Below are positions 1,026 to 31,518 of a DNA stretch of 64,000 bases, piece after piece. Made by a program: the position numbers and the translations under genes. This stretch comes from an uncultured Coriobacteriaceae bacterium. Lineage in GTDB: Bacteria > Actinomycetota > Coriobacteriia > Coriobacteriales > Coriobacteriaceae. The stretch covers positions 1 to 64,000 of the forward strand of contig CALUOP010000006.1 of the NCBI GenBank assembly GCA_944322305.1. The letters run 5' to 3'. The notes under the pieces were generated by a model that searched no databases, was not told where the DNA came from, and saw only the letters and a program-made list of their open reading frames with translations. Within the stretch, counting starts at the first letter, position 1. Each line of letters opens with the position of its first letter.

Positions 1026-3732
1026 TCTCATCAACCGGGTAGCCGATCTGGTGGCGACGAGCCTCGCGGCGCTTGCGGGCAACCGGCGCCGGCTTGCGGC
1101 CGCGGCCTGCGCGCTTGCGGTGCCGCTTGCGCTGTGCGCCATAGGGCTGGCGGTTGCCGGCCAGCTCGACGACGCGGCCGCGCGCACGCCCGTGGCCGTG
1201 GTGAACTTGGACGAGGGCACCGAGAGCGATGGGCGTACGGTCAAGGCCGGCGACGACTTGGTGGACACGCTGGAGGACTCCGACGAGCTTTCATGGTCGG
1301 TCGTGGACGAGCAGGCCGCCGACGCCGGCCTGGCTGACGGCACCTACGCCCTTGTGCTGACCATCCCCGAGGACTACTCGCAGGACGTGGCCTCGCAGAA
1401 GGGCTCAGAGCCGTGCAAGGCCGAGATCGAGATCGCCTCGAACGGGGCGGGCAACCCGCTCGCCACCGAGGCGGGCTCGGAGGTGCTCAAGCAGGTGCAG
1501 GCGCGTCTGAAAGCCGACCTGGGCCATGACTACCTGGTCTCGGTGCTCTCGGACGTGCACGGCGAGGCCTCGCGCCTCTCGCTCACCGCCGACGGTTCGG
1601 TGCTCCTCGACCAGGCTTACGAGGCGCTGGAGCAGGGTGCGGACGCCATGGCCTCGGGTCTCGGGCAGATGGCGACGGGCATGGAGCCGCTCGGCTCGGG
1701 GATCGGGCAGATCCAACAGGGAATGCAGACGATCGGCGCAGGAACCTCCGCGGTGGGCAGCGGCTTGGCGCTTTTGCGCGACCAGGCGGTGACGCCGCTT
1801 GCCACGGGGCTTTCCGGCATGTCGGCCGGCCTTGACGCGGTCGCGGCGTCTGCGGGGCAGCTGGCCGAGGGCGCCGACGCGGTGGCGGAGGGCATCGAGG
1901 GCGTGGGCGCGCTGGTGGACTCCGGCATCGCGGGGCTGGCCGACTACGCGTCCGGCCTGGCGCCGACGGCAGGCGCGGTGGCCGAGAAGTACGCGGCGCT
2001 CGCGTCTGCCACTTCCGCGGTGAGCGACGAGGCGGCAAAGGTCTCGGGGCTTGACGGCGCGGCTGACGCGGCGAAGGCTGCGGCGCAGGGCGGCATGCGC
2101 CTCGCCGAGGTGCTGGGCACGCCTGCCGACCCTGCCAACGGCGTTGCGGCGACGGGCCTTGCCAGGGATGCCGGCGAGGCCGCCGACGACGCGGCGGCGG
2201 TGGCTTCTCAGGCAGACGGACTCGCTGCCCAGGCGGACCGGCTCGCGGCGGCGCTCGACGCAGCTGAGAAGAACGCGGCGGGCAGCGCAGACGCATCCGC
2301 TGCAGCGGCTGATGAGGGCGTCGCGGGTGCCAGCGAGACCGGCGCCTCTTCGAGCAACCTTGACGCCGTGCGCGCAGAGCTCGCGGCGCTGCGGGAGCAG
2401 GTAAGCGCCTTGCGCGCGGATGCCGACGCCTTGGCGAAAAGCCAGTCCGCGCTCGCCGAAGGCGTGGACGGGGCAGCCGCACAGGCCGCGGGCAGCGCCG
2501 GGGACGCCGCAGACGCGAGCGAGGCCGTGGCTGCCGCGCAGGACGCGCGCGAGCCGCTTGCCCGCGCCCTTGAGGCGCAGGGCGCCGCAGCCGACGAGCT
2601 GGTGGGTGCTTCGGCAGACCTCGCGCACGAGGCTGCCGCCGGCGCCGACAAGGTGACCGGCTCCGTAGGCTCGCTCGCCGCCGCGTACGCAGCGCTCAGC
2701 GGCTCGGGGCAGACCTCGGGGCTCGCGGACGCGGCGCGCGTGGTGAGCGCGGGCGTCACGGCCCTCGGCGCGCAGCTGGGGCAGGAGGGCGCGCTCGGCG
2801 GCGGGCTCGCCGCGCTCGCCCAGGGTTCCCAGGCGCTGGCGGCAGGGTTCGACCCCATGATCGCCGGCCTCAGCCAGCTGGGCGGCGCAGGCGTTGCGCT
2901 CGGTGACGCGTTGGGTACGGTGGGCTCGGGCGTGAGCGGCCTCGGCCAGGGGCTCGGGGCGCTCGCCGCGGGCGGCACGAGCCTGGGGGAGGGTATCTCG
3001 CAGGTGGCCGAGATGTCCAGCGGCACCTCCGACACGCTTTCCGCAGCCGCTGACGCCTTGGGCGAGGCCGCGGCCAACCGCGCGGAGCGCGCCGAGGTGG
3101 TAAGCGACCCCGTGACCTTCGTGAGCGCGCAGGTTAACCGCGTCGACTCCGCAACGGATGCGTGGGCCCCGCTGATCTGCGCGGTGGCCCTGTGGGTAGG
3201 CGCCTTCGCAGCGCTGGCGGCCGTGCCCGCGGCCGACGCGCGCATGCTCTTCTCGGGTGCGTCGCCGGTGCTCACGGCGCTGGGCGCGTGGATCCCGCTA
3301 GCCGTCGTCACCCTGGCCGAGGCGGCGGTTGCGTGCGCGGTGCTGGCGCTTTCCGGCGTTGCCGCGGCGAACCTGCCTGCGCTTGCGGGCCTCGCCGCCT
3401 TGGCGGCGCTTGCGTTCTCGGCGGTTGCGTGCGCGCTGCGCCTTGCCCTCCCGCGGGGCTGCGCGGCCGTCGGCGCGGTGTGGCTCGCCCTCTCGCTCGC
3501 CTGCGCCGGAGCGGTACTGCCGGCGTCGTTCGTGCCCGGTGCGCTCACAGCCATCGCGCCGCTGATGCCGGTGGCGCAGCTTGCCCAGGGGTTGCGCGCG
3601 GCCGTTGCCGGCGGCGCGACCTCGGCTGCTCCTGCGGTGGCGCTCGCGTTGTGGACGGTGGCGGGGCTCGTCGCGGCCTCAGCCGCCGCGTGGCGCCGCG
3701 GCACCGTGCGTCCGGAGCTTATCGGCAGGTAG
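1018..3732 (+). CDS. YhgE/Pip family membrane protein
   Basis: The 904-residue product has a membrane segment at about residues 25-48, followed by VAVVNLDEGT, the hallmark of the YhgE/Pip N-terminal domain. About five more membrane segments lie between roughly 710 and 890. Between them is a very long Ala/Gly-rich region with repeated GxGLxxLAxG-type units, likely an extended coiled stalk outside the membrane. The family includes phage-infection protein Pip of lactococci and ESX/type VII-associated proteins, and is related to ABC-2 permeases. The gene follows an ATPase-like gene with an 8-base overlap, the usual pairing for an ABC-2 type exporter, although here the ATPase looks defective. The transported substrate is unknown. 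Confidence 0.85.
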   Translation: MRDLINRVADLVATSLAALAGNRRRLAAAACALAVPLALCAIGLAVAGQLDDAAARTPVAVVNLDEGTESDGRTVKAGDDLVDTLEDSDELSWSVVDEQAADAGLADGTYALVLTIPEDYSQDVASQKGSEPCKAEIEIASNGAGNPLATEAGSEVLKQVQARLKADLGHDYLVSVLSDVHGEASRLSLTADGSVLLDQAYEALEQGADAMASGLGQMATGMEPLGSGIGQIQQGMQTIGAGTSAVGSGLALLRDQAVTPLATGLSGMSAGLDAVAASAGQLAEGADAVAEGIEGVGALVDSGIAGLADYASGLAPTAGAVAEKYAALASATSAVSDEAAKVSGLDGAADAAKAAAQGGMRLAEVLGTPADPANGVAATGLARDAGEAADDAAAVASQADGLAAQADRLAAALDAAEKNAAGSADASAAAADEGVAGASETGASSSNLDAVRAELAALREQVSALRADADALAKSQSALAEGVDGAAAQAAGSAGDAADASEAVAAAQDAREPLARALEAQGAAADELVGASADLAHEAAAGADKVTGSVGSLAAAYAALSGSGQTSGLADAARVVSAGVTALGAQLGQEGALGGGLAALAQGSQALAAGFDPMIAGLSQLGGAGVALGDALGTVGSGVSGLGQGLGALAAGGTSLGEGISQVAEMSSGTSDTLSAAADALGEAAANRAERAEVVSDPVTFVSAQVNRVDSATDAWAPLICAVALWVGAFAALAAVPAADARMLFSGASPVLTALGAWIPLAVVTLAEAAVACAVLALSGVAAANLPALAGLAALAALAFSAVACALRLALPRGCAAVGAVWLALSLACAGAVLPASFVPGALTAIAPLMPVAQLAQGLRAAVAGGATSAAPAVALALWTVAGLVAASAAAWRRGTVRPELIGR

Positions 3733-18021: not shown

Positions 18022-19734
18022 ATGACCGACCGACCGAGCACCACCGAGTCCTACCGCAAGTACACGCGCGGCTACTACCTGCCGCCGGAGCCCTGCTTCG
18101 ACTGGGTCAAGAAGGACTACATCGACCAGGCGCCCGCGTGGTGCTCGGTAGACCTGCGTGACGGCAACCAGGCTCTTATCGTCCCGATGAGCCTGGACGA
18201 GAAGCTCGAGTTCTTCCAGATGCTCGTGAAGATCGGCTTCAAGGAGATCGAGATCGGCTTCCCGGCGGCATCCGAGACCGAGTTTGAACTCGCCCGCACC
18301 CTGATCGAGCGCGACATGATCCCCGACGACGTGACCATCCAGGTGCTCACCCAGGCGCGTCCGCACATCATCCGCCGCACCTTCGAGGCGCTCGAGGGCT
18401 GCAAGACGCCCGTGATCGTGCACGTGTACAACTCCACGAGCGTGGCCCAGCGCGAGCAGGTGTTCAAGAAGGACAAGGACGCCATCAAGCAGATCGCCGT
18501 CGAGGGCGCCAAGCTCCTGAAGGAGCTCACGGACGAGAACGGCGGGCACCCCAACTACCGCTTCGAGTACAGCCCCGAGAGCTTCACCGGCACCGAGCCC
18601 GAGTACGCGCTCGAGGTGGTCAACGCGGTGCTGGACGTGTGGCAGCCCACGCCCGAGCGCAAGGCGGTCATCAACCTGCCGGCCACCGTTGAGATGAGCT
18701 TGCCGCACGTGTTCGCCAGCCAGGTTGAGTACCTCTCCAAGAACATGCGCTACCGCGACGCGGTGGTGCTCTCCCTGCACCCGCACAACGACCGCGGCAC
18801 CGGCGTAGCCGACGCCGAGCTGGGCGTGCTCGCAGGCGCCGACCGCATCGAGGGGACGCTCTTCGGCAACGGCGAGCGCACCGGCAACGTCGACATCATC
18901 ACGCTGGCCATGAACCTGTTCAGCCACGGCGTGAACCCCAACCTCGACTTCAGCCACATGGACGAGCTGGTTGAGCTCTACGAGCGCGTGACCCGCATGA
19001 GCGTGAGCCCGCGCCAGCCCTACGCCGGGCAGCTGGTGTTCGCGGCGTTTTCGGGCAGCCACCAGGACGCCATCGCCAAGGGCTTCAAGTGGCGCGAGGA
19101 GCACGACCCCGAGCACTGGAACCTGCCCTACCTGCCCATCGACCCGGCCGACGTGGGCCGTCGCTACGAGACCGACGTCATCCGCATCAACAGCCAGTCC
19201 GGCAAGGGCGGCGTGGGCTACGTGCTCGAGCAGGCCTTCGGCTACGTGCTGCCCAAGCCCATGCGCGAGGAGTTCGGCTACGTGGTCAAAAGCGTGTCGG
19301 ACCATGCGCACAAGGAGCTCGCGCCCGCCGAGATCAACGACATCTTCCAGGCCGAGTACGTTAACCGCGCGGGTGCCGTAAACCTGGTGGACTTCCACTT
19401 CGTGCGCGCGGGCGGCGACACCGTGAAGGTGTTCATGACCCTTGAGCAGGGTGGCGAGGAGCGCGAGGTGATCGGCGCCGGCAACGGCCGGCTCGACGCG
19501 GTGGCCGAGGCCCTGCGCAAGCTCGGCGTCGACTACCACCTGAGCGCCTACCACGAGCACGCGCTCGACCAGCAGGGCGCGGCGTCCACCGCGGCCGCCT
19601 ACGTGTGCCTGGAGGCCGAGGACGGCGCGAGCTCGTGGGGCTGCGGCGTGCATCCGGACATCATCACCGCCTCCATCCGCGGTTACATCTCCGCGGTGAA
19701 CCGCCTCATGGCGCAGGAGGCCGCCCAGGCGTAA
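18022..19734 (+). CDS. leuA: 2-isopropylmalate synthase
   Basis: LeuA condenses acetyl-CoA with 2-oxoisovalerate, the first committed step of leucine synthesis. The 570-residue product is of the long (type found in actinobacteria and fungi) form. It has a TIM-barrel domain with VDLRDGNQAL, LHPHNDRGTG and GNGERTGNVD, and a C-terminal regulatory LeuA dimer domain from about residue 430 that normally binds leucine for feedback inhibition. The ATG at 18022 follows GAGAAAGGA. leuC, leuD and leuB follow. Confidence 0.96.
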   Translation: MTDRPSTTESYRKYTRGYYLPPEPCFDWVKKDYIDQAPAWCSVDLRDGNQALIVPMSLDEKLEFFQMLVKIGFKEIEIGFPAASETEFELARTLIERDMIPDDVTIQVLTQARPHIIRRTFEALEGCKTPVIVHVYNSTSVAQREQVFKKDKDAIKQIAVEGAKLLKELTDENGGHPNYRFEYSPESFTGTEPEYALEVVNAVLDVWQPTPERKAVINLPATVEMSLPHVFASQVEYLSKNMRYRDAVVLSLHPHNDRGTGVADAELGVLAGADRIEGTLFGNGERTGNVDIITLAMNLFSHGVNPNLDFSHMDELVELYERVTRMSVSPRQPYAGQLVFAAFSGSHQDAIAKGFKWREEHDPEHWNLPYLPIDPADVGRRYETDVIRINSQSGKGGVGYVLEQAFGYVLPKPMREEFGYVVKSVSDHAHKELAPAEINDIFQAEYVNRAGAVNLVDFHFVRAGGDTVKVFMTLEQGGEEREVIGAGNGRLDAVAEALRKLGVDYHLSAYHEHALDQQGAASTAAAYVCLEAEDGASSWGCGVHPDIITASIRGYISAVNRLMAQEAAQA

Positions 19735-19839: not shown

Positions 19840-21099
19840 ATGGCAATGACCATGACCCAAAAGATCCTGGCGGCGCACGCCGGGCTCGACGAGGTGGTGC
19901 CCGGCCAGCTGATCGAGGCCGACATCGACCTCGTGCTCGCCAACGACATCACCGGACCGGTGGCCATCCGCGAGCTCAAGAAGGCCGGGATGGACAAGGT
20001 GTTCGACAAGGACAAGGTGGCCCTGGTGATGGACCACTTCGTGCCCAACAAGGACATCAAGAGCGCCGAGCAGTGCGTGGAGTGCCGCGACTTCGCGCGC
20101 GAGCACGGCATCGTGAACTTCTTCGACGTGGGCCGCATGGGCATCGAGCACGCCCTGCTGCCCGAGCAGGGGCTTGTTGCCGCCGGCGACTGCATCATCG
20201 GCGCCGACTCCCACACCTGCACCTACGGCGCGCTAGGCGCCTTCTCCACCGGCGTGGGCTCCACCGACTGCGCCGCGGGCATCGCCACCGGCAAGGCGTG
20301 GTTCCGCGTGCCCTCGGCTATCAAGGTCGTGCTCACGGGCAAGAAGGCCCCGTGGGTCTCGGGCAAGGACGTGATCCTGCACCTCATCGGCGAGATCGGC
20401 GTCGACGGCGCGCTCTATCAGAGCCTCGAGTTCACGGGCGAGGGCGTGGCGGAGCTCACCATGGACGACCGCTTCTCCATCGCCAACATGGCCATCGAGG
20501 CCGGCGCCAAAAACGGCATCTTCCCGGTGGACGACAAGACCGTAGCCTACATGGAGGGCCGCGTCCCGCGCGCGTGGAAGGTGTTCGAGGCTGACGCCGA
20601 CGCCGAGTACGAGCGCACGGTCGAGATCGACCTCTCAACGCTGCGCCCCACCGTCTCGGTTCCGCACCTGCCCGAGAACGCCAAGCCGGTTGAGGAGGTT
20701 GCCGGCACCGAGATCCAGCAGGCGGTCATCGGCAGCTGCACCAACGGCCGCATCGAGGACATGCGCGTGGCCGCCGACATCCTGCGCGGCCGTCACGTGG
20801 CGCCGGGCGTGCGCGCCATCGTGATCCCGGCAACCCAGGAGGTGTACTTGCGGTGCATCCGCGAGGGCCTGGCCGAGGTCTTCATCGAGGCGGGCGCCGT
20901 CATCTCCACGCCCACCTGCGGCCCGTGCCTGGGCGGCTACATGGGCATCCTCGCCGCCGGCGAGCGCGCCATCTCCACCACGAACCGCAACTTCGTGGGC
21001 CGCATGGGCCACGTTGACTCCGAGGTGTACCTTTCGAGCCCGGCCGTGGCCGCCGCCAGCGCCGTAACCGGCGTGATCACCGACCCGGCCACGCTGTAG
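19840..21099 (+). CDS. leuC: 3-isopropylmalate dehydratase large subunit
   Basis: LeuC with LeuD isomerises 2- to 3-isopropylmalate using a 4Fe-4S cluster. The 419-residue product is of the short LeuC/HacA class. Cluster-binding cysteines are visible in GSCTNG and [13 protein letters not shown], and [12 protein letters not shown] supplies the first. A LeuD gene follows after 281 bases that hold two long palindromes. Methanogen-type homoaconitase is a relative, but the leu context settles the role. Confidence 0.94.
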
Positions 21100-21114
21100 G
21101 ACTGTTCCACCTGA

Positions 21115-21202
21115 GCCCGGATCGGCGGGTACAAACTCCGTGCTCAAACATTCTCGCTTCGCTGCGAAACTGCGCGCGGAGCATGTACCCGCCGATCCGG
21201 GC
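21115..21202. repeat. Palindromic element 1 between leuC and leuD
   Basis: An 18-base arm (21115-21132, ending GGCGGGTAC) is repeated perfectly inverted at 21185-21202. The 52-base interior contains CTCCGTGCTCAAACA and GCGAAACTGCGCGCGGAG. Shared internal motifs show that it is related to the second, larger palindrome that follows. Confidence 0.8.
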
Positions 21203-21230
21203 GAGGGCTTCTCGTCCGGCAGCAGAGCGA

Positions 21231-21351
21231 GCGTGGGAGGGCGGGTATATCGTCCCGCGCGCAGTTCTGCAGACGCAGGAGATGCCGTTTCCGGCATCTC
21301 CGTCGCGTCGAAGCTGTTTGAGCACGGGATGATATACCCGCCCTCCCGCGC
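21231..21351. repeat. Palindromic element 2 between leuC and leuD
   Basis: Left arm 21231-21257 and right arm 21325-21351 form a 27-base inverted repeat with two mismatches, centred on GGAGGGCGGGTATATC. On the opposite strand its interior contains CCGTGCTCAAACA and GAACTGCGCGCGGG, matching element 1. The inner GAGATGCCGTTTCCGGCATC can form its own hairpin. Element 2 is thus an inverted relative of element 1. Confidence 0.8.
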
Positions 21352-21380
21352 TTGGATCACCCCACCGGAAGGAGCCGACT

Positions 21381-21872
21381 GTGAACGCACACGGCACTGT
21401 TTTCAAATACGGGGACAACGTCGACACCGACGTCATCATCCCGGCCCGCTACCTCAACATCGCCGACCCTGACGAGCTGGCCACCCACGCCATGGAGGAC
21501 ATCGACGCCACGTTCGTCAAGCGCGTGAAGCCCGGCGACATCATCGTGGCCAACCGCAACTTCGGCTGCGGGTCCTCGCGCGAGCACGCGCCGCTCGTCA
21601 TCAAGCAAAACGGCGTGTCCTGCGTTATCGCCGCGAGCTTCGCGCGCATCTTCTACCGCAACGCCATCAACATCGGCCTGCCCATCCTCGAGTGCGCCGA
21701 GGCGGCCGACAAGATCGCCGACGGCGACGAGGTCGAGATCGACTTCTCCACCGGCGTCATCCGCGACGTCACGCGCGGCGAGAGCTACCAGGCGCTGGCG
21801 TTCCCGGAGTTCATCAACGGCATCATCGAGCACGGCGGCTTGCTCAACAGCCTGAAGGCGAGGGGAGTGTAA
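21381..21872 (+). CDS. leuD: 3-isopropylmalate dehydratase small subunit
   Basis: LeuD is the swivelling small subunit that completes the LeuC active site. The 163-residue product has [17 protein letters not shown] and [13 protein letters not shown], both family hallmarks. It starts at GTG 21381 after GGAAGGAG. Its TAA shares one base with the leuB ATG. The palindromes upstream could affect how much transcript reaches leuD-leuB relative to leuA-leuC. Confidence 0.95.
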
Positions 21873-22942
21873 TGGAGTTCAGGATCGCGGTTCTCAAAGG
21901 CGACGGCATCGGTCCCGAGATCGTTGCCGAGGCCATGAAGGCGCTTGACACGGTGGGCGAGAAGTTCGGCCACACCTTCACCTACGAGGAGGCGCCCATC
22001 GGCGGCGCGGCCATCGACGCGGTGGGCGAGTGCCTGCCCGAGCGCACGGTCGACATCTGCCAGGGCTCTGACAGCGTGCTGCTCGGCGCGGTGGGCGGCC
22101 CCAAGTGGGACAGCCAGCCGCCGTCGAACCGCCCGGAGAAGGCGCTGCTCGGCATCCGCAAGGAGCTGGGGCTGTTCGCCAACATCCGCCCGGCGCGCCT
22201 GTGGGAGCCGCTGGCCGACGCCTGCCCGTTGAAGCCCGAGCGCCTGAAGGACGGCCTCGACTTGGTGGTGGTGCGCGAGCTCACCAGCGACGTGTACTTC
22301 GGCGACAAGAGCCGCGACGCCGACGGCCGCAGCCACGACGACATGACCTACTCGCCCGAGGAGGTCGAGCGCATCGCGCGGCGCGCCTTCGAGATGGCCC
22401 GCCAGCGCCGCAACCACGTGACGAGCGTGGACAAGGCCAACGTGCTCGAGACGAGCCGCCTGTGGCGCGAGACGGTGGCGCGCGTGGCGGAAGGGTACCC
22501 GGACGTGGAGCTCGACTATCTCTACGTGGACAACGCCGCCATGCAGCTGGTGTTGAACCCGGGGCAGTTCGACGTCATCCTTACCGGCAACCTCTTCGGC
22601 GACATCCTCTCCGACGAGGCCAGCTGCATCACCGGCTCCATCGGCATGCTGCCGAGCGCGAGCCTGTCGCTTTCCAGCCGCGGTATGTACGAGCCCATCC
22701 ACGGCTCTGCGCCCGACATCGCCGGCAAGAACCTCGCGAACCCCATCGCCACGGTGCTCTCGGCGGCCATGATGCTGCGCTACAGCCTGAACCTGCCCCA
22801 GGAGGCCGACGCCATCGAGGGTGCGGTGAACCGCGTGCTCGAGGCGGGCTTCCGCACCGCCGACATCGCCAAGCCCGGCGACGAGTACATGACCTGCTCG
22901 GACATGGGCCAGGCCATCTGCTCCGAGATCCGCAACGGGTAA
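21872..22942 (+). CDS. leuB: 3-isopropylmalate dehydrogenase
   Basis: LeuB oxidises and decarboxylates 3-isopropylmalate with NAD. The 356-residue product has LKGDGIGPEI at the N terminus, the substrate-site RKELGLFANIRPA, VRELTSDVYFG, and near the end the NAD-binding GSAPDIAGKNLANP. It overlaps leuD by one base and a strong terminator follows, closing the operon. Confidence 0.97.
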   Translation: MEFRIAVLKGDGIGPEIVAEAMKALDTVGEKFGHTFTYEEAPIGGAAIDAVGECLPERTVDICQGSDSVLLGAVGGPKWDSQPPSNRPEKALLGIRKELGLFANIRPARLWEPLADACPLKPERLKDGLDLVVVRELTSDVYFGDKSRDADGRSHDDMTYSPEEVERIARRAFEMARQRRNHVTSVDKANVLETSRLWRETVARVAEGYPDVELDYLYVDNAAMQLVLNPGQFDVILTGNLFGDILSDEASCITGSIGMLPSASLSLSSRGMYEPIHGSAPDIAGKNLANPIATVLSAAMMLRYSLNLPQEADAIEGAVNRVLEAGFRTADIAKPGDEYMTCSDMGQAICSEIRNG

Positions 22943-29796: not shown

Positions 29797-31518
29797 ATGG
29801 CGGTAAGCATTTCCCGCGAGGCGTACGCCTCCATGTACGGCCCCACCACGGGCGACCGGGTGCGCCTGGCCGACACCGACCTTGTCATAGAGGTGGAGCG
29901 CGACCTGACGGTTTACGGCGACGAAGCAAAGTTCGGCGGCGGCAAGACGCTGCGCGACGGCATGGGGCAGTCCGTCCAGACAACCTCTGCCGACGGCGAC
30001 TTGGACCTGGTCATAACCAACGCGCTCATCTTGGACTACACGGGCGTTTACAAGGCCGACATCGGCGTCAAGGACGGGCTCATTGCCGGCATCGGCCATG
30101 CGGGCAACCCCGACGTCATGGCCGGCGTGACCCCGGGCATGCGCATTGGGGCCTCCACCGAGGCGCTCGCCGGCGAGGGGTTTATCGTCACGGCGGGCGG
30201 CGTTGACACCCACATTCACTTCATCAGCCCCACGCAGGTGGGTTGCGCGCTCATGAGCGGCGTCACCACCATGATCGGCGGCGGCACGGGGCCCGCCGAC
30301 GGAACCAACGCCGTCACCTCCACGCCCGGGCCGTGGAACCTGGCCCGGATGCTGCGCGCCGCCGAAGCGTACCCGGTGAACCTGGGCTTTCTGGGCAAAG
30401 GCAACTGCTCTGCCCCGGCGCCGCTGGTCGAGCAGGTGAAGGCGGGCGCCATCGGCCTCAAGGTGCACGAGGACTGGGGCGCCACGCCGGCCGCGATCGA
30501 CAGCGCGCTTGCCGTGGCCGACGCCTACGACGTGCAGGTCGCCATCCACACCGACACCCTGAACGAGTGCGGCTGCGTGGAGGACACGGTGGCCGCCATC
30601 GCCGGGCGCACCATCCACACCTACCACACCGAGGGCGCCGGCGGCGGCCACGCCCCCGACATCATGCGCATCGCCGGCGAGCCCAACGTGCTGCCGAGCT
30701 CGACCAACCCCACCATGCCGTTCTCGGTGAACACCTTGGACGAGCACCTGGACATGCTCATGGTCTGCCACCACCTGGACAGCCGCATCCCCGAGGACGT
30801 GGCCTTTGCCGACAGCCGCATCCGCCCGGAGACGATTGCGGCCGAGGACGTGATGCACGACCTGGGCGTGTTCTCCATGATGAGCTCGGACAGCCAGGCT
30901 ATGGGTCGCGTTGGGGAGGTTGTCACCCGCACGTGGCAGACAGCCAGCAAGATGCGCGCCCAGCGCGGTCCGCTGCCCGAGGACGCGGGGCGGGGCAACG
31001 ACAACTTCCGCGCGCGCCGCTACGTGGCCAAGTACACCATCAACCCCGCCGTGACCCACGGCATCAGCCGCTACGTGGGCTCGGTCGAGCCGGGCAAGCT
31101 GGCCGACCTCGTGCTGTGGGATCCGCGCTTCTTCGGCGTGACCCCCGAGATCGTGGTGAAGGGCGGCTTCATCTGCGCGGCGCGCATGGGAGACGCCAAT
31201 GCCTCCATCCCCACCACGCAGCCGGTCATGATGCGCTCCATGTTCGGCGCTGACGGCCTGGCCCGCGCCGACACCTGCCTGACCTTCATGTCGCAGGCGG
31301 CGGCAGACGCTGGGGTGGGCGAGAAGCTCGGGCTCAGGCGGCGGGTGGCCGCCGTGGGCGGGTGCCGCGGCATCGGCAAGGCGGACATGCGTCTGAACGA
31401 CCGCACGCCGCGGATCACCGTGGATCCGGAAACGTACGCGGTCACGGTGGACGGCGAGCCGGTGACCTGCGAGCCGGCCGAGCGCCTGCCGCTGGCGCAG
31501 CTCTACCGGCTGTTCTGA
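29797..31518 (+). CDS. ureC: Urease alpha (catalytic) subunit
   Basis: The 573-residue product has all visible active-site elements: GVDTHIHF (Ni ligands, near residue 135), GLKVHEDWG (carbamylated Lys near 221), [24 protein letters not shown], and the catalytic flap MVCHHLD near 322, then [11 protein letters not shown]. Normal length is about 567-572. GAGGAGGGGAGATAAGCC precedes the ATG. Accessory genes ureE, F, G and D follow. Confidence 0.98.

Follow-up and report, generated by a model that had tools for sequence, protein, structure and literature searches.

A REP-like family of dispersed hairpin repeats in Coriobacteriaceae, with two oppositely oriented members between leuC and leuD

Introduction

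The REP/BIME elements of bacterial genomes, palindromes tagged by GTAG and CGTC, are extragenic and lie mostly behind coding regions, in many cases no more than 20 bp from the stop codon; the neighbouring genes are unidirectional or convergent, and the elements often come in inverted pairs (PMC3733652). The unit measures 20-40 bp, and the copies often number more than 100 (PMC3733652). A second line of work concerns palindromes as substrates of replication errors: template switching between inverted repeats has been described as giving both homogenisation of the arms and inversion of the spacer (PMC8794818, PMC8604942). Here, we describe two long palindromes found between leuC and leuD in a stretch of 64,000 nucleotides from an uncultured Coriobacteriaceae bacterium (hereafter, the window), together with the repeat family to which they belong.

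Results

Two oppositely oriented hairpins separate leuC from leuD

The leucine genes of the window, named by NCBIfam, are leuA (18022-19734), leuC, for the large subunit of 3-isopropylmalate dehydratase (19840-21099, forward strand), leuD, for the small subunit, with a GTG start (21381-21872, forward strand) and leuB (21872-22942). The first hairpin, E1 (21115-21202), starts 16 nt past the leuC stop codon and is formed, on the forward strand, by a left arm of 19 nt with the site-specific sequence GCCCGGATCGGCGGGTACA (21115-21133), a core of the short type (21134-21183) and a right arm (21184-21202) that is the perfect complement of the left one. The core contributes an inner stem of 8 bp (CTCCGTGC/GCGCGGAG) to the perfect outer stem of 19 bp, and carries the conserved internal-loop motifs TGCTCAAACA and AACTGCGCGC. 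A spacer of 27 nt (21203-21229) separates E1 from its convergent partner, E2 (21230-21352, reverse strand). The outer arms of E2, of 27 nt each and with two mismatches between them, lie at 21230-21256 (the right arm of the inverted copy) and at 21326-21352 (the left arm), around a core of the long type with the apical hairpin GGAGATGCCGGAAACGGCATCTCC (21257-21325). E2 ends 28 nt ahead of the leuD start; GGAAGGAG, which directly precedes that start and is likely to be the ribosome-binding site, falls outside the hairpin.

A core is common to both hairpins (CCGTGCTCAAACA ... AACTGCGCGCGG): CCGTGCTCAAACA is found at 21138-21150 on the forward strand in E1 and at 21315-21327 on the reverse strand in E2, and ACTGCGCGCGG at 21169-21179 (forward) and 21255-21265 (reverse), respectively. 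Since the shared motifs lie on opposite strands, E2 is an inverted copy. No other short-range inverted repeat of the window is as long as E1 or E2, and the folding of these two gave z values of -8 to -11, with none of 200 dinucleotide shuffles folding as well. Thus, the long palindromes that a first-pass annotation had reported at this junction are real, and the opposite orientation and common motifs ascribed to them were borne out.

In three congeners (L123/G003, L122/G001 and L121/G002), leuC and leuD are separated by a bare junction of 15 nt. The simplest interpretation is that this genome gained E1 and E2, although losses are also possible. The junctions of other Coriobacteriaceae hold unrelated repeats, either of the GTCATTTGGGGACGGGGTC type or, in G048, another long palindrome. 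The leuC-leuD junction is a spot that tolerates repeats. A role specific to leucine genes was considered and rejected, as copies of the element also follow def, leuS and further genes, and the leuC-leuD junctions of relatives carry unrelated repeats. Elsewhere in the window, the Rfam model 5_ureB_sRNA matched the reverse strand at 29955-30245 (104.7 bits), which probably reflects a conserved urease gene read on the opposite strand and not an sRNA gene.

The hairpins belong to a dispersed family

In the genome, of 2.35 Mb, the core 13-mer CCGTGCTCAAACA has 11 exact matches, and the reversed sequence, used as a control, has none. A query of 103 nt from E2 found 13 places at E below 1e-9, plus weaker ones, and most of its length was matched at 93-96% identity in five other places of the genome; by similarity search, about 16 copies are present, including E1. 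Matches were also found in 30 of the 60 genomes of relatives. The core 20-mer TATCATCCCGTGCTCAAACA is present in 55 public contigs, every one of which is titled Coriobacteriaceae, Collinsella, Enorma or Candidatus Limicola. The suggestion that the two palindromes are copies of one dispersed element is therefore strongly supported, multiple copies having been found both in this genome and in its relatives; judging from these matches, the family spans the Coriobacteriaceae (Collinsella, Enorma and relatives). Plasmid and phage collections gave no match to the element. Over the window, no Rfam family was matched by the element at the gathering threshold, and a search of 12 element loci at E<=1 gave, at the element, only weak matches to microRNA models, far below gathering. 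Text searches of the open-access literature returned no description of the family, which is apparently undescribed in Collinsella and relatives.

Instances were gathered by script, through similarity to E2 or to E2-like cores (123 distinct instances, later 146). The common core has GTGCTCAAACA on its 5' side and AACTGCGCGC on its 3' side, with a few mismatches allowed, and encloses an apical hairpin of variable length, which gives a loop of 31-71 nt. The outer stem, of about 15-34 bp, differs in sequence from site to site and is self-complementary save for scattered mismatches; most instances are 75-136 nt long. Congeners G001 and G002 have a divergent core (AAATGCTCAAGCACA...GAACCTCGCATTT) in an unchanged layout, CCCG/CGGG being AAAT/ATTT there. 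The fixed terminal inverted repeats of MITEs and DNA transposons were not seen, the outer arms differing among copies, and no target duplication was noticed by eye at the single site for which relatives lacking the element were compared.

A second constant core, CGAGGCTTNGCGATCTCGCTTA, beside one copy of the element, proved to be single copy, and no further family is claimed. At L008 and L163 (G000:C5:~204200), a hairpin with the conserved loop CTCGAGGCTTYGCGATCTCGCTTA, single copy in G000, has stems that differ between G000 and G003 yet match within each; matched but different stems may be general in these genomes. Downstream of dut, at L156, L153 and L152, left halves of the element ending near the hairpin tip and followed by GGGGCGC-like sequence are found in tandem, possibly as products of template-switch or deletion errors. 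At L247, a 35-nt inverted repeat of the GGGGACG type (3093-3166; 89%) lies near the single RAYT-like gene of the genome.

Copies lie close behind stop codons

Gene context was read from a simple home-made gene finder based on codon usage, checked on the leu genes, the calls of which are approximate. Of 109 scorable copies, 70 follow a stop codon in sense orientation; the distance from it is at most 15 nt for 37 of these and at most 30 nt for 54. The flanking gene pairs are convergent in 26 cases and divergent in four. Many of the remaining copies are the second members of convergent pairs and, like E2, end about 25-40 nt ahead of the next start; inverted or convergent pairs are found at L100, L101, L105, L110, L140, L088 and L147, besides E1/E2. 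At the leuS site, one member of a pair survives in G000 together with what is left of the other, and G003 retains that other member, indicating that element pairs decay.

Stem halves change together

Covariation was analysed at one orthologous site of Collinsella, represented by 10 sequences, the orthologs having been partly collapsed by similarity. In the 33-bp stem, 96.7% of the cells are paired, against 35-47% when the arms are slid. Seventeen pairs are doubly changed, and the covariation score was 0.529 versus 0.158 in shuffles, none of 500 of which scored as high. Among pairwise stem differences, both partners had changed in 366 and only one in 12, 11 of which involve the recombinant L165. 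In the parts that align in register, the gene DNA flanking the site has about 87-95% identity. The same flanks at def-fmt carry at least five stem classes, as well as a class that recombines left and right parts. Also at def-fmt, the core of G072 is inverted; when flipped, it is identical to the core of G033. Moreover, orthologous sites of G000 and G003 have related stems with different core subtypes, which suggests that cores have been exchanged between sites.

Arms that match almost perfectly, changes on both sides and an inverted spacer are together the signature of replication template switching, and errors of this copying kind probably keep the stem halves matched. Against copying of the arms weighs an A-C mismatch of the inner stem, which 49 of the 73 stem clusters retain; either copying of the arms is not universal, or this mismatch is under selection.

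Discussion

The covarying stems could also belong to a structured RNA element, in which selection acts on pairing in the transcript, compensatory point mutations go to fixation, and an RNA-binding protein or a nuclease binds the core. This would agree with the strong covariation, with internal-loop motifs conserved despite the differing length of the apical hairpin, and with the sense orientation close behind stop codons. However, G-U pairs are not preferred in the mRNA sense: the outer-stem mismatches of sense copies near a stop codon comprise 10 G-T and 14 A-C, and those of the core strand in all stem clusters 16 G-T and 36 A-C (p 0.008; 52 mismatches). With no surplus of G-U over A-C on the mRNA strand, selection on mRNA pairing alone is an insufficient explanation; one-sided intermediates are, moreover, almost absent from the ortholog set, and convergent partners give the same mRNA the reverse complement of the element. 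We regard an RNA element as rather unlikely. The mismatch asymmetry, based on those 52 mismatches, would make sense if the complementary strand acted in folded form, as would be expected of a mobile unit of single-stranded DNA in the style of RAYT/HuH systems, the hairpin being mobilised by a transposase that recognises the folded bottom strand. A foot motif, ACGYA, adjoins the stem on the bottom strand in 13 of 119 copies, on the other strand in none, and in two of 357 control windows; a GTAG-like foot occurs in Collinsella, mainly in C. aerofaciens copies, and RAYT-type genes are present in G000 and G003 (absent from G001/G002). Yet the foot motif is confined to a minority of copies, none of the 12 Y1-transposase loci fetched has the element, and G021 and G048 carry it with no Y1 gene detected. 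No mobilising enzyme was found: the RAYT loci of G000 and G003 carry GGGGACG-type repeats instead, the sole REP-type tyrosine transposase gene of G000 thus adjoining other repeats. Mobilisation of this type seems decidedly unlikely.

Stems that belong to the site around cores that are shared could also arise if the core had been inserted into the loop of a pre-existing palindrome, for example a terminator, the stem then being host sequence. The empty leuC-leuD sites of the same genus, however, are 15 nt long with no palindrome, and the feet beyond the stem are common to copies at different sites. In addition, the Collinsella copies behind def (def-fmt) and at the dut locus precede a separate terminator-like hairpin, as read by eye, and insertion into a loop is very improbable. 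That separate hairpin also means that the element is not the terminator at def and dut. Long GC-rich hairpins behind genes do resemble ordinary transcription terminators or attenuators, but E1 and E2 lie inside the leu operon, no U-tract is present, and a terminator scan reported neither of them; we give this explanation hardly any credence.

The sequences compared here document the dispersal of the hairpins, their placement behind stop codons, the covarying stems, core inversion at one orthologous site and, at other orthologous sites, related stems with unlike cores. We lean towards a reading in which E1 and E2 would belong, as one of its common convergent pairs, to a non-coding hairpin repeat family of Coriobacteriaceae that behaves like REP/BIME; the outer stem of each copy would be peculiar to its site, and the enclosed core, with two conserved internal-loop motifs and a variable apical hairpin, would be shared. 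The stems would be held nearly perfect, and diversified, mainly through replication template switching between the arms, which would copy a change from arm to arm and now and then flip the spacer; cores would spread between sites through recombination or some transposition. A more elaborate version, in which hypervariable arms are matched by template switching and the conserved core is passed between sites, perhaps via folded bottom-strand single-stranded DNA and a putative enzyme, strikes us as doubtful.

A function of E1 and E2 as mRNA hairpins between leuC and leuD, which the first-pass annotation had proposed, is plausible from their positions, E1 starting 16 nt behind the leuC stop and E2 ending 28 nt ahead of the leuD start. 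In E. coli, REPs located near a stop codon reportedly affect translation. By analogy with REP elements, we infer an effect on leuC-leuD expression, in which the hairpins would hinder either 3'-5' decay or ribosomes close to the stop codon. In the reading that we favour, the two hairpins would be REP-like barriers on the leu mRNA that protect the upstream 3' end from exonucleases and/or slow ribosomes near the leuC stop, shifting the leuC:leuD ratio. More generally, the family offers a natural experiment on compensatory evolution: among closely related gut species, numerous orthologous stems have changed in both halves with almost no intermediates, and a flipped core is found beside them. The proposal that long stems are kept by template switching, as opposed to selection on pairing, is directly testable in bacteria. 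The repeats occupy positions at which REP elements may influence the stability of mRNA.

Of the systems described, the family is closest to REP/BIME: it is extragenic, lies mostly 3' of genes and avoids divergent gene pairs, and its units are found in alternating orientation or as inverted pairs. It differs from REP/BIME in its mostly longer units (75-136 nt, against 20-40), in its copy number (about 16-20 at most, against usually >100) and in a stem that changes from site to site while the core stays constant. Unlike GTAG/CGTC-tagged REPs, it has no consistent tag of either kind at the hairpin foot and, in contrast to RAYT-mobilised REPINs, the element does not flank a RAYT gene at the loci examined. 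The RAYT-cognate REPs of these genomes (GGGGACGGG...TTTGAC) likewise occupy leuC-leuD in several relatives, but they are unrelated in sequence and adjoin the RAYT-like genes of G000 and G003. With quasipalindromes edited by template switching, the family shares double changes without intermediates and spacer inversion (PMC8794818, PMC8604942, PMC7202029); here, however, the palindromes form a dispersed repeat family, the core of which looks exchanged between sites. The hairpin family is a variant of the REP-like class, previously undescribed in the literature searched.
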